Shown here piece after piece: positions 11,679-15,496 of a DNA stretch of 23,556 bases. Made by a program: the position numbers and the translations under genes. Where the stretch lies: IMG/VR virus record IMGVR_UViG_3300045999_003697, positions 1 through 23,556 of that record; one strand, written 5' to 3'. The DNA comes from a virus. The notes under the pieces are model-generated. The model ran no database searches and was not told the origin of the DNA. It was given only the letters and a program-made list of their open reading frames with translations. Each line of letters begins with the position of its first letter. Positions within the stretch are counted from its first letter, which is position 1.

Positions 11679-11686
11679 AACCCGCA

Positions 11687-12376
11687 ATGACAATACACGA
11701 AATCGGAAAGGTCAAGATTTACAACGGTGACAACCTCGAAGTCTTGAGCTCGCTAGAGCTTGATTTATCTCGCTGCATTTTTGTGACCGATCCTCCCTTC
11801 AACGTAGGATATCACTACAACGAATACGAGGACAAGATGGACGAAAAAGAATACTACAAGTGGCTCGTGGAAATCTTTGGAACTCAAAGGCACGTAGTAG
11901 TCCACTATCCCGAATCTCTGTATTTATATTCTCACTATGCTCACCAGATACCTCAGAAGGTTGTAAGCTGGGTTTACAACTCAAACACGGGTAAACAGCA
12001 CCGGGATATCGCATTCTTCAACGTCAAGCCTGATTTCCGAAAGGTTAGCCAGCCGTACAAGAATCCAAACGACAAGCGAATCGCAAAGAGGATTAGCGAA
12101 GGCAAGACGGCGCGGCTTTACGACTGGTGGGAAATCAACCAAGTAAAAAACGTGAGCTCCGAAAAGACGGAGCACCCTTGCCAAATGCCACAAAAGGTTA
12201 TGGACAACGTGATAGGGATACTTCCGGAAGGTTACACAATCGTTGACCCCTTCCTCGGAAGCGGAACCACGGCTCTTTCTTGCATGAAGTATGACCGTGA
12301 TTTTATCGGTATTGAGATTGACTTCAAGTATTTCGAGATTGCAAAGCAGAGGATACAAAACACCGAGCCAAGATGA
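11687..12376 (+). CDS. Beta-class DNA methyltransferase (N6-adenine or N4-cytosine)
   Basis: A 229-aa enzyme. Catalytic motif IV is DPPF (35-38, in FVTDPPFNVGYHY) and the SAM-binding motif I is DPFLGSGTT (187-195), in the order IV before I that defines the beta class; DPPF suggests adenine-N6 methylation. The KTEHPCQMPQ segment (160-169) is the usual motif before the SAM site. The recognition sequence cannot be read from it, and there is no partner restriction gene, so it is a solitary phage methyltransferase that probably protects DNA. Its sequence looks more A/T-rich than the surrounding early genes, hinting at separate acquisition. It overlaps the next ORF by ATGA. Confidence 0.88.
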   Translation: MTIHEIGKVKIYNGDNLEVLSSLELDLSRCIFVTDPPFNVGYHYNEYEDKMDEKEYYKWLVEIFGTQRHVVVHYPESLYLYSHYAHQIPQKVVSWVYNSNTGKQHRDIAFFNVKPDFRKVSQPYKNPNDKRIAKRISEGKTARLYDWWEINQVKNVSSEKTEHPCQMPQKVMDNVIGILPEGYTIVDPFLGSGTTALSCMKYDRDFIGIEIDFKYFEIAKQRIQNTEPR

Positions 12377-12519
12377 ATAGTACAGAACTCATCGGAAGAG
12401 CAAGAGACCGCTGGAACGAGATAGACCACGAAGACCTCGACTGGTTTTCTTTCTTTAACGGCTGGCTGGAAGGCAGGGCAGATATTGCCTACTCAAAGAA
12501 AGAAGCTGGTGACTATTAA
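12373..12519 (+). CDS. Small acidic protein, unknown function
   Basis: A 48-aa ORF (MNSTELIGRARDRWNEIDHE...) beginning at an ATGA overlap with the methyltransferase stop. It is helical, with aromatic cluster WFSFFNGWLEG, and ends EAGDY. Its last codons are the first copy of the repeat array at 12504-12561. Translational coupling makes it likely to be expressed. It may be a short partner of the methyltransferase. Confidence 0.55.
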   Translation: MNSTELIGRARDRWNEIDHEDLDWFSFFNGWLEGRADIAYSKKEAGDY

Positions 12520-12561
12520 CTCTAGCTGGTGACTATGGCTGCGACTATGGCTGGTGACTAT
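12504..12561 (+). repeat. Short imperfect repeat array (AGCTGGTGACTAT unit)
   Basis: Full copies at 12504-12516, 12524-12536 and 12549-12561 (the last begins GGCTGG) plus a shortened copy GGCTGCGACTAT at 12537-12548. The units are adjacent or 7 bases apart. They span the end of the 48-aa ORF and the gap after it, so they are not explained by a protein repeat alone. Confidence 0.7.
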
Positions 12562-12773: not shown

Positions 12774-12951
12774 GTACGCCAAAGAGCGGCGCATCGAATA
12801 CTGGAAGAACTACAACCTCAAAGACGACGAGGACACACGGTGCTTCACCAGATACGCCACGAACTACGATTACCTTTGGCTGCAAGCCGTCGCAGACGAC
12901 GTACTCGGAAAAATCAAGCACGATGAACTCCACTGGATTGACAAGGGTTAA
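12724..12951 (+). CDS. Small charged protein, unknown function
   Basis: A 75-aa protein (MSYTKAERAEIAKNIREYAK...), helical with many Lys/Glu/Tyr residues. ATG 12724 is preferred over 12694 because the longer start would add a hydrophobic stretch read mostly in the overlapping membrane ORF. It overlaps the ParB-like gene by 29 bp. No recognised domain. Confidence 0.55.
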   Translation: MSYTKAERAEIAKNIREYAKERRIEYWKNYNLKDDEDTRCFTRYATNYDYLWLQAVADDVLGKIKHDELHWIDKG

Positions 12952-13468
12952 GCTCTCCCAACTCAAGAGTAACCCAAACAACCCGCGAATAATCAAGGAC
13001 GATAAATTCCGGAAGCTGGTTCGGTCGATCACAGAGTTCCCCGAGATGCTCGAAGCCCGACCTATCGTCTGTGACCCCGACGGGGTAGTTCTAGGAGGCA
13101 ATATGAGGCTCAAAGCGTGCCGGGAGGCAGGGCTCAAGGAAGTACCCGCCTACGTCGTTACATGGGAGGAAGCGAAGCAGAGGGAGTTCATCATAAAGGA
13201 CAACGTAGGGTACGGAGAATGGGACTGGGACGAGCTCGCAAATACGTGGGACCCCGTCCAGCTCGAAGAATGGGGGCTCGATGTGTGGCAACCGGAAGAA
13301 GAGCCTAGTTTGGAGGACTTATTAGGCGAAGAGAAAGACAACCCTGCTAGTATGAAGATTACTTTTGCAAGCCCGGAGCAATTACAAAGGGCCGAAGTAG
13401 TAATACAGGAGTATCTTGATCGGGAATGCCCGGGCTCGTACTTTTCTATTTCGGTCGGTGCAGCATGA
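12923..13468 (+). CDS. ParB/Srx-fold protein
   Basis: A 181-aa protein. The N-terminal domain has the ParB nucleotide-binding signature: LKSNPNNPR (about 14-22), then VVLGGNMRLKACREAG and VPAYVV, equivalent to the GGxRR/GxR box of ParB-like proteins. A middle segment with KDNVGYGEWDWDEL and LEEWGLDVW is typical of the phage ParB-like family, which is often linked to DNA methylases. The C-terminus (MKITFASPEQLQRAEV... ) forms a small alpha/beta domain. ParB-fold domains bind and hydrolyse CTP or act as nucleases. It overlaps both neighbours (29 bp and ATGA), placing it in the modification operon. There is no ParA, so plasmid-like partitioning is unlikely. Confidence 0.75.
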   Translation: MNSTGLTRVKLSQLKSNPNNPRIIKDDKFRKLVRSITEFPEMLEARPIVCDPDGVVLGGNMRLKACREAGLKEVPAYVVTWEEAKQREFIIKDNVGYGEWDWDELANTWDPVQLEEWGLDVWQPEEEPSLEDLLGEEKDNPASMKITFASPEQLQRAEVVIQEYLDRECPGSYFSISVGAA

Positions 13469-14025
13469 CTATAAAGCCAGCGAGCCGCAAAGCGATAGAA
13501 TACGCGTGTCTAAATTTTCATTACGCAAAGACCGTTCCTTCTGTTTCTGTTGCTCACGCGATTTTTGAGGAGGACGTTTGGTGCGGTGTTGTTCTTTACG
13601 GACCGGGAGCAAGTGCGAAAATGGGAGAAAGTATAAACCTAAAACAAGGGCAGTTTCTTGAGCTGGTTCGGGTAGCCTTAAACGGAAAGCAGAAGGCTAC
13701 AAGTCAAGTTCTCGGCGCAAGCCTAAAAAAGCTAAACAAAACGGCCCCGGGAGTTCAAGCTGTAGTCAGCTACGCCGATAAAGGTCAAGAACACAAAGGA
13801 ATAATCTATCAGGCGACCAACTGGACCCTTGTAGAAGATATCGAAAGCTCCGGAGTAGAGTATTTTTATCTTGGGGAATGGAAACACGACCGCGGTAGAT
13901 ACGGATGGAAAACCGACTTTAGAACGTTACCTAAGAGAAAGAAAGCAGGAAAATACAAGTACATCTATTTCTTTAATAAGAAGCTCAAGAAACAATTCCC
14001 GTCTCTGCCATATCCAAAGAAATGA
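13465..14025 (+). CDS. Mom-family DNA adenine hypermodification protein
   Basis: A 186-aa protein. Features matching phage Mu Mom relatives are the N-terminal motif CLNFHYAKTVPS (15-26), ELVRVAL (66-72), and PGVQAVVSYADKGQEHKGII (95-114) followed by YQATNW, which is a GNAT-like acyl-transfer core. Mu Mom converts adenine to N6-methylcarbamoyl adenine and blocks many restriction enzymes. Here it would modify phage DNA at a site chosen by itself or with the upstream ParB-like protein or methyltransferase. Its sequence is visibly more A/T-rich than neighbours. ATG 13465 is chosen since the upstream start at 13426 reads in the ParB gene. It abuts the small terminase (ATGA), so modification and packaging genes are coupled. 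Confidence 0.72.
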   Translation: MTIKPASRKAIEYACLNFHYAKTVPSVSVAHAIFEEDVWCGVVLYGPGASAKMGESINLKQGQFLELVRVALNGKQKATSQVLGASLKKLNKTAPGVQAVVSYADKGQEHKGIIYQATNWTLVEDIESSGVEYFYLGEWKHDRGRYGWKTDFRTLPKRKKAGKYKYIYFFNKKLKKQFPSLPYPKK

Positions 14026-14354
14026 GCTCCACAAATTCTACACGTAAAAAGGACCTCTTAGACGCTCTGGAGCGTTCACTCGGCATCGTGTCCACAGCTT
14101 GCGAGAAGGTGGGTGTAGACCGCAAGACCCATTACAACTGGCTGAAGGACGATGCCGAATACAAGGAGGCGGTTCGAGCTATCGAAGAGCGGACTATCGA
14201 TTTCGCAGAATCGCACCTACACGCGCTCATCAAGGACAAGAACCCCGCCGCGACTATCTTCTTCCTAAAGACCAAAGGGAAGAACCGCGGCTACGTAGAA
14301 CGTCAAGAAATCGAAGTCAACGAGCCTCGGCCGCTTACGTGGTTTAAGGAATGA
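14022..14354 (+). CDS. Terminase small subunit
   Basis: A 110-aa protein with an N-terminal helix-turn-helix (LERSLGIVSTACEKVGVDRK, then HYNWLKDDAEY, about 16-47), the classical DNA-recognition part of small terminases of the phBC6A51/Tc3-like type. The rest is helical with an AESHLHALIKDKNPAATIFF segment of the oligomerisation region, ending NRGYVERQEIEV. It recognises the packaging start and loads the large subunit. It overlaps both the Mom-like gene and the large terminase by 4 bases. Confidence 0.82.
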   Translation: MSSTNSTRKKDLLDALERSLGIVSTACEKVGVDRKTHYNWLKDDAEYKEAVRAIEERTIDFAESHLHALIKDKNPAATIFFLKTKGKNRGYVERQEIEVNEPRPLTWFKE

Positions 14355-15496
14355 CCCTTGCACAGTCTTACTACGACTGCAAGAACTCGGCCTCACGCAT
14401 CCAGATACATCAAGGAGGCACCCGGTCGGGGAAGACCTATTCTATACTCCTTTGTCTTATCGAGTTCTGCTACAAGAACCCGAACGCGGGAGCCGTCGTT
14501 ACCGTAGCCCGGAAGACCTTCCCGGCTCTGCGTGCTTCCGTCATGCGGGACTTCTTTTCTATCCTCGAACGGGAGGAGATATACAACCCCGAGCTCCACA
14601 ACAAAAGCGACGCTACCTACCTCCTCTTCGGGAACCTCGTGGAGTTCATCTCCGTAGACCAGCCCCAAAAGGTGCGAGGCAGGAAGCGGGATATCCTTTT
14701 CATAAACGAAGCGAACGAGGTCTCTCTGGAGGACTGGAGGCAGCTCCTCCTTCGGACTACCCTCAAGGCAATAATCGACTACAACCCTTCGGATGAGTTT
14801 CACTGGATTTACGACGAAGTAATACCCCGAGACGATGCGCAATTCTTCAAGACGACCTACCGAGACAACCCCTTCCTACCGGCGGAACTCGTCGCCGAAA
14901 TTGAACGGCTACAAGTGGCCGACGAGAACTTCTGGAGGGTCTACGGACTCGGAGAGCGAGGAGCATCCCGAAGCACCGTCTTCACCCACTACACCACAGT
15001 AGACCGCGTAGGCCCGGAATGGAAGCTCGTAGCCTACGGGCTAGACTTCGGGTATACGAACGATCCGACCGCGGTGGTAGGAGTCTACACCGACGGATAC
15101 GGGTACCTTCTCGACGAGGTGCTCTACCGAACCGGACTCTCGAACCGGGAGATATCTAAGCTGCTCGAGGTAGGGAAGGCTCAGGTGATAGCCGACTCCG
15201 CAGAACCCAAATCTATCGACGAGCTCCACGGGTACGGGCTCAACGTCCACCACGCAAGGAAGGGCCCCGACTCCGTACGGGCGGGGATTCAGTTCCTTCA
15301 ATCTCGACCCCTTGCGGTGACCTCTGGGAGCGTGAACCTCATCAAGGAACTGAGGAACTACAAGTGGAAGGAAGACAAGAACGGGAAGGTCCTAAACGAG
15401 CCCGTGGACGCGTTCAACCACGCTATCGACGCGGCGAGGTACGCGGCTATGTTCAATCAGTCAAACCCCAACTTCGGGAGGTATCGGATAGGCTAA
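14351..15496 (+). CDS. Terminase large subunit
   Basis: A 381-aa packaging motor. Walker A GGTRSGKT (22-29), Walker B ILFINE (115-120, catalytic Glu120) and then a coupling region define the ATPase. The nuclease (RNase H-like) domain starts about residue 225 with LDFGYTNDPTA (Asp232), ADSAEPKS (Asp282) and DAFNHAIDAARYA (Asp353 and Asp360), the expected acidic triad. It pumps DNA into the prohead through the portal and cuts it. It is a compact TerL of the PBSX/Terminase_3 type. It is followed by a possible promoter at its 3' end. The corresponding portal gene is far away at 2385. Confidence 0.92.
   Translation: MTLAQSYYDCKNSASRIQIHQGGTRSGKTYSILLCLIEFCYKNPNAGAVVTVARKTFPALRASVMRDFFSILEREEIYNPELHNKSDATYLLFGNLVEFISVDQPQKVRGRKRDILFINEANEVSLEDWRQLLLRTTLKAIIDYNPSDEFHWIYDEVIPRDDAQFFKTTYRDNPFLPAELVAEIERLQVADENFWRVYGLGERGASRSTVFTHYTTVDRVGPEWKLVAYGLDFGYTNDPTAVVGVYTDGYGYLLDEVLYRTGLSNREISKLLEVGKAQVIADSAEPKSIDELHGYGLNVHHARKGPDSVRAGIQFLQSRPLAVTSGSVNLIKELRNYKWKEDKNGKVLNEPVDAFNHAIDAARYAAMFNQSNPNFGRYRIG

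Follow-up and report, generated by a model that had tools for sequence, protein, structure and literature searches.

A Mom-family gene beside a ParB-fold gene with an exchangeable tail: a candidate adaptor for DNA modification at a phage packaging module

Why should a phage gene for a DNA-modifying enzyme of the Mom family be joined to a gene for a protein with the ParB fold, directly before the terminase genes? Mom shields the DNA of phage Mu from restriction, the donor of the group that it transfers is debated, and how it handles DNA is poorly understood. In Mu, its product is methylcarbamoyl adenine (structure, PDB 8bv8). The present locus lies in a virus record of 23,556 bases, which was analyzed as a whole and is referred to here as the window, and which carries replication-type, NinG-like, terminase, portal protein and tail genes (Table 1).

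One report (PMC12783734) states, in its available portion, that it is unknown what a ParB domain does in or next to phage DNA-modifying enzymes, and describes the function of the ParBc genes located near the CmoX cytosine-carboxymethyl systems as unknown too. These systems likewise place a ParB-domain gene beside a phage DNA-modification enzyme, although the chemistry differs, and Mom is not mentioned in that portion of the report.

Table 1. Features of the modification and packaging region of the window.
Feature	Positions	Strand	Basis
Solitary N6/N4-type DNA methyltransferase, beta motif order	11687..12376	+	PF01555 2.9e-25
ParB-fold N-terminal domain, residues 1-122, resident in sisters	12923..13288	+	Foldseek, phmmer, sister DNA identity
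ParB-fold linker and C-terminal tail, residues 123-181 plus stop, Mom-associated	13289..13468	+	Tail cluster, co-swap
Exchange island, ParB tail and Mom, replaced in sisters	13304..14019	+	blastn breaks, G+C
Mom-family DNA modification enzyme, GNAT-like fold, 186 aa	13465..14025	+	PF25680, PHROG1384, 8bv8 fold match
Small terminase subunit (terS), right-hand border of exchange slot	14022..14354	+	PHROG terminase small subunit 1.9e-7
Large terminase subunit (terL), PBSX type	14351..15496	+	TIGR01547 8.1e-42

The Mom-family enzyme and its ParB-fold neighbour

The earlier note had proposed, from the letters alone, a Mom-like product for the ORF starting at ATG 13465, and a structural comparison with Mu Mom as a check. 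The product matches the Pfam family PF25680 (Mom) at 6.5e-31 and 108 bits, above the curated cut-off of 27.1, over profile positions 3-202 of 202, and it also matches PHROG 1384, "Mom-like DNA modification protein" (5.4e-46), and the sequence of PDB 8bv8, "Methylcarbamoylase mom" (1.7e-8, phmmer). When the AlphaFold2 model built on 53 aligned sequences (pLDDT 91.4, pTM 0.84) was searched with Foldseek, both 8bv8 chains came top at about 2e-12, followed by the next chain at 6e-5, and VIA-align superposed 171 residues on 8bv8 with Z 19.5, rmsd 3.2 and 23% identity, the next entry having Z 12.0. In the alignment with the 231-aa Mu protein, whose sequence and numbering were taken from the Mu genome, H19, Y20, E66, R69, S80, S102, D105 and Y115 of the window correspond to H48, Y49, E98, R101, S114, S136, D139 and Y149, all of them identical; S80 is kept in at least 90% of the 53 sequences, and the others are invariant. 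The title of 8bv8 names S124A as an inactive mutant, and Mu S114 would be this S124 by an offset of 10, which fits the entry numbering of 40-241. Judged by sequence and predicted fold, the gene encodes a Mom-family enzyme that shares the fold of Mu Mom and keeps its conserved residues, the counterpart of S114 among them, so that both the proposed identity and the structural likeness are borne out. Given that a score above the cut-off was reached in only 2 of 395 bacterial genomes of one phylum, Mom would be mainly a phage gene.

The surroundings are different from those in Mu, where mom pairs with Com at the genome end; in the window, mom pairs with the ParB-fold gene directly before terS. No com-mom operon of the Mu type was found, the gene that overlaps mom at its 5' end being the ParB-fold gene. 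Both overlaps that had been described by the earlier note are present as ATGA, at 13465-13468 between the ParB ORF (12923-13468) and the Mom ORF and at 14022-14025 between the Mom stop and the terS start, and the A/T-richer composition of the Mom gene was equally confirmed, at 44.2% G+C against 53.3% for the window.

The ParB-fold gene probably starts at ATG 12923, which gives a protein of 181 aa. Its Pfam ParB_N score of 25.3 bits is just below the curated cut-off of 26.3, and phmmer reaches Spo0J/ParB entries at about 2e-4; the best Foldseek match of its model is Myxococcus xanthus ParB with CTPyS (7bnr, 2.4e-6), and the fold matches begin with ParB, Noc and KorB, followed by sulfiredoxin. 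The ParB fold is clear in the predicted model despite the sub-threshold Pfam score. In this model, the N-terminal 120 residues are well predicted and the linker poorly, and the tail, which contains no CxxC motif, is predicted as one helix (151-168) with ill-defined ends.

In common with the canonical ParB/Spo0J CTPase clamps, the protein has the N-terminal fold and the Gly, Arg and Asn of the nucleotide pocket, conservation by which CTP binding is possible. It differs from them in its short length, in the lack of a match to a helix-turn-helix (HTH) or dimerization domain, and in the Asn found at the equivalents of M. xanthus Q52 and E93, which are N20 and N60 by a hand count from the alignment, with the mutant names taken from PDB titles. 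Since all 71 relatives keep N20-P21-R22, G59, R62 and N94 unchanged (N60 is kept in at least 90%) and Asn occupies the Q52 and E93 sites, nucleotide binding appears plausible and hydrolysis doubtful. A role as a partition ParB was rejected, given that Pfam returned neither an HTH nor a C-terminal dimerization domain in the 181 aa; a scan of selected window ORFs found no ParA.

Exchange inside the ParB-fold gene of sister phages

A natural experiment is offered by near-identical phages whose ParB tail and enzyme differ at this slot. Eight IMG/VR contigs (L035, L036, L037 and L039-L043), referred to as sisters, share with the window 95-100% protein identity in TerL over the aligned part (in L042 over 150 residues only), 87-99% in TerS and about 89-99% in the ParB domain, and the aligned piece that holds the ParB N-terminal domain is 89-97% identical in DNA in all eight (blastn). 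In every one of them, the blastn alignment breaks at 13290-13303, inside parB and after "...GLDVWQ", and resumes at 14019-14040, at the start of terS. The slot between these points is filled by the ParB tail and Mom in the window and in the near-identical L001, by an N6/N4 methyltransferase in frame with ParB in L035 and L041, and by a 20-residue CxxC tail with no enzyme in the remaining six sisters. By these alignments, the ParB N-terminal domain stays in place and the block from the ParB tail through the end of Mom is exchanged in all eight. The sister L041 also has a distant Mom between terS and terL, 23% identical to that of the window (PF25680, 2.5e-29).

The exchange island has 45.1% G+C, a value reached or undercut by 0.4% of 457 equally sized windows, and the ParB N-terminal domain has 54.9%. 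In ten pairs of relatives, dN was lower than dS for the tail and for Mom wherever either varied, a pattern of purifying selection on both in the pairs tested; L059 and L054 have an identical tail and strongly differing Mom proteins.

The beta-class methyltransferase that the earlier note had placed about 1.1 kb upstream is indeed there, 1.09 kb from Mom, with a DPPF motif near its N-terminus and FLGSGTT near its C-terminus, and its island (about 11680-12370) has 45.9% G+C. The A/T-richness is therefore real, and it is made up of two islands, given that the resident ParB N-terminal domain separates them, which goes against the suggestion that the region was acquired as a unit. The methyltransferase is continuous in L035 and L036, where the slot has no Mom, cleanly absent in L041, L042 and L043, and replaced in L039, the contigs of L037 and L040 not covering this region. 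Between the methyltransferase and ParB, at 12499-12561, there are three imperfect 18-base direct repeats (core AGCTGGTGACTAT/GGCTGGTGACTAT) spaced by 20 and 25 bases.

Some of these elements are already in print: ParB-methyltransferase fusions, ParBc genes near modification genes and a variable methyltransferase/acetyltransferase region in a packaging module. Phage fusions of the ParB fold with N6_N4 methyltransferases appear in the part of PMC12704722 (PNAS 2025) that was available. These have the same kind of ParB domain with a DNA-modifying enzyme, and L035 and L041 are such fusions, whereas in the window the enzyme is a Mom encoded by its own, overlapping gene, and ParB carries a tail in place of the fusion; neither Mom nor terminase occurs in the main text of that article. 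In a cryoconite Mu-like phage, the accessible sections of PMC7468147 describe a packaging module with a region of variable content, in which methyltransferases are gained and lost and one variant carries an "acetyltransferase", with ParB, TerS and TerL in the figure legend, although these sections connect the region neither with Mom nor with a ParB tail or a crossover within parB. The ParB-Mom combination as a functional pair with enzyme-specific tails was not found in the literature searched, which covers part of the field.

Pairing, effectors and tails across viral loci

The pairing was counted in a Mom-anchored set made up of the best 80 of 547 relatives, and hence skewed to close relatives, using profiles trained partly on the same contigs that were counted; a locus was scored as paired where the stop of a ParB-domain or tail gene fell from 60 bases upstream to 30 bases downstream of the Mom start. 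Such a gene ends at the Mom start in 77 of these best 80 loci, with the domain and the tail in a single ORF in 68 of the 80, and an exact 4-base overlap is present in 71 of the 77 pairs; of the three unpaired loci, two are within 20 bases of a contig end. In a mixed set of 110 distinct Mom cores (loci L001-L225, including ParB-fetched ones, with L013 split in two and L034 left out as a copy of the window), a ParB domain and/or tail is located upstream of 85, a ParB downstream of 6 and neither beside 19, two of which are at contig ends.

The pair is also found in records from Clostridia, Bacteroidota and Selenomonadales (L194-L199, L202, L203), and the association outlasts a change in gene order, given that parB follows mom in six Dehalococcoidia/Chloroflexota-type records (L216-L219, L221, L222). 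No ParB-Mom fusion was present among the tabulated ORFs; the long Mom ORF of L213 (522 aa) was rejected as a candidate, as its frame looks to have been extended too far upstream. Four loci (L204-L206, L024) have a Mom-type tail joined to an N-terminal part unrecognized by the ParB profile, which lacks a Pfam ParB match in L024, L205 and L206, L204 reaching only 0.039; by eye, this part contains a DGxHR-like motif. The Mom-type tail of L207 (2140-2481) belongs to an ORF in which no ParB domain was recognized. The ParB-like genes that adjoin Mom in L029, L208, L209, L210, L212, L213 and L214 were seen by eye only; the four compared with Pfam (L029, L208, L210 and L213) gave no ParB match, and these genes were not counted as ParB.

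Cultured phages are less uniform: among 15 Mom loci of named phages, ParB is adjacent in three (phiEf11, Appa and B2_17) and one gene off in Shade, and it was not seen beside Mom in the other 11, Mu included. In these four phages (L226, L227, L228 and L237; B2_17 being a Salinibacter phage, Appa a Microbacterium phage and Shade an Arthrobacter phage), the ParB that accompanies Mom ends in a zinc-ribbon-like CxxC tail and not in one of the window type. By eye, the CxxC tail is similar to the first of the CxxC motifs in Mu Com, and it also occurs without Mom in the sisters L036, L037, L039, L042 and L043.

From the side of ParB, the best 80 of each ParB-anchored search gave 139 distinct loci, with Mom adjacent in 47, a long C-terminal extension in 35, which matches PF01555 in all 35, another arrangement in 55, ten of which run straight into terS, and 2 loci that are cut off. 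The 38 downstream ORFs scanned from these best 80 per search (L090 and L099 omitted as near copies of L089) included TET-associated glycosyltransferase (TAGT, 16), C5 cytosine methylase (4), FkbM methyltransferase (4), Tet_JBP (3), glycosyltransferase group 1 (1), GNAT (1) and ABC/AAA ATPase families (2), families that may overlap within one protein, the remainder being without an informative match. Neither the FkbM methyltransferase nor certain others of the downstream genes count as established DNA modifiers.

The clustering of 102 tails (47 with Mom and 55 other, again from the best 80 per search) yielded one cluster of 43, of which 40 have Mom adjacent and three (L075, L140 and L174) lack a scanned effector, one of 7 that all belong to a second Mom subfamily, one of 9 with CxxC tails and no scanned effector, and one of 27 where glycosyltransferase, FkbM, C5-methylase and a few others are mixed. 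Given the cluster of 27, the tails are not enzyme-specific for every enzyme; a Mom-type tail with another scanned effector was not found among the 102.

On the ParB-domain tree, which is weakly resolved (138 rows, 117 columns, from the best 80 per search), the effector labels require at least 58 changes against a shuffled mean of 82, and the Mom label at least 5 changes forced by supported branches, so that the labels cluster and yet exchange is frequent. The covariation of enzyme and tail was followed in 5 independent pairs on supported branches, with about 3.7 concordant, none opposite and a median p of 0.125, too few for significance.

A proposed ParB-fold adaptor and the alternatives to it

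With modest confidence, we propose that the ParB-fold protein serves as an adaptor that brings modification enzymes to the phage DNA ahead of packaging, by tails that are specific to the enzyme and can be exchanged. In the docking and chemistry that we infer, the ParB-fold domain would bind nucleotide and DNA as a clamp or platform, the tail would dock Mom, and Mom would modify adenines in the phage DNA with a methylcarbamoyl group or a similar acyl group, late in infection and just before packaging, the modified virion DNA being expected to resist host restriction, as in Mu. In other phages, an N6/N4 methyltransferase, a glycosyltransferase, a C5-methyltransferase or a TET oxygenase may be carried on the same ParB platform through another tail or a fusion. 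Tentatively, and at somewhat less than even confidence, the platform may be an NTP-binding loader by the packaging genes, with enzymes that recognize their own tail or are fused to it, such that one crossover in parB would switch the virion chemistry. If so, modification would be processive or coupled to packaging, beyond the site preference of the enzyme itself, and the crossover would switch among Mom acylation, methylation, glycosylation and oxidation.

The weakest link of the adaptor model is that the co-transfer of tail and Mom may be plain linkage between two homologous flanks. The ParB-fold protein would then be an unrelated DNA-binding protein of the phage, and the stretch from its conserved 5' part to terS a recombination hot spot that takes in modification genes, where tail and Mom move together as neighbours, an explanation that is unlikely. 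The slot does have homologous flanks on either side, the ParB domain is kept in the six sisters without an enzyme, and Mom is missing beside three tail-bearing ParBs, but the pair persists with the same 4-base overlap far beyond this phage group (in the best 80 of 547) and also in the reversed order, Mom-type tails accompany Mom and no other scanned effector, and the ParB domain is fused to a methyltransferase in 35 of 139 loci, the last two counts coming from the best 80 per search. It is quite improbable that the C-terminal end of ParB is instead a translational regulator of mom, comparable to Mu Com, and the pairing a matter of expression control: the Com gene overlaps the mom start and is annotated as a translational activator of mom, and the four named-phage ParB tails have a CxxC like that of Com by eye, but the window tail lacks this motif, parB comes after mom in the Chloroflexota-type loci, an ATGA overlap couples translation by itself, and the ParB-methyltransferase fusions have no need of a regulator.

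We consider it very unlikely that the protein, of ParB/sulfiredoxin fold, is itself an enzyme and readies the group transferred by Mom in an ATP- or CTP-dependent reaction. Sulfiredoxin structures are among its fold matches, and ParB-fold members that bind ATP or GTP are reported in the available part of PMC12704722; against this, one ParB domain is common to SAM methyltransferases and glycosyltransferases, a diversity of chemistries which favours a generic ParB role, and no ParB is located beside Mom in the Mu stretch examined. The least credible alternative, to which we give hardly any weight, is that of the earlier note, in which the solitary methyltransferase, ParB and Mom act together and methylation selects the sites. 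The methyltransferase is only 1.1 kb away, and a combination of Mom and a methylase occurs elsewhere, given that the two genes are side by side in Polaribacter P12002L (L234, 655-1353) and Vibrio 1.187.O (L239, 2103-2834). Since the sisters gain and lose the methyltransferase independently of Mom, however (two of the eight have it without Mom, and four are without it), it belongs outside the ParB-Mom unit; it is a separate island, and in most relatives it has a weak match or none near Mom. Of that proposal, the coupling of Mom to the ParB-fold gene was upheld; on the sister mosaics, the methyltransferase failed as a third component, and the tripartite unit was rejected.

Under the adaptor model, the locus predicts a concrete and separable docking element on ParB, and phages would alter the chemical disguise of their DNA by swapping modules on one shared adaptor. 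If true, this would explain the quick change of anti-restriction chemistry by phages, offer a modular means of targeting DNA-modifying enzymes, and give Mom a partner protein that is easy to test.

Second, distant Mom genes without ParB are present in L041 (5424-6038, that between terS and terL) and in L072 (4750-5421, after terL). Finally, in L104 (1781-2953), a ParB relative is followed by an unmatched ORF and a 6-pyruvoyl tetrahydropterin synthase-like gene, and in L089 (4599-6589) by an unmatched ORF and a DUF3440/PAPS-reductase gene, neighbours that are possibly further modification chemistries at the same slot.
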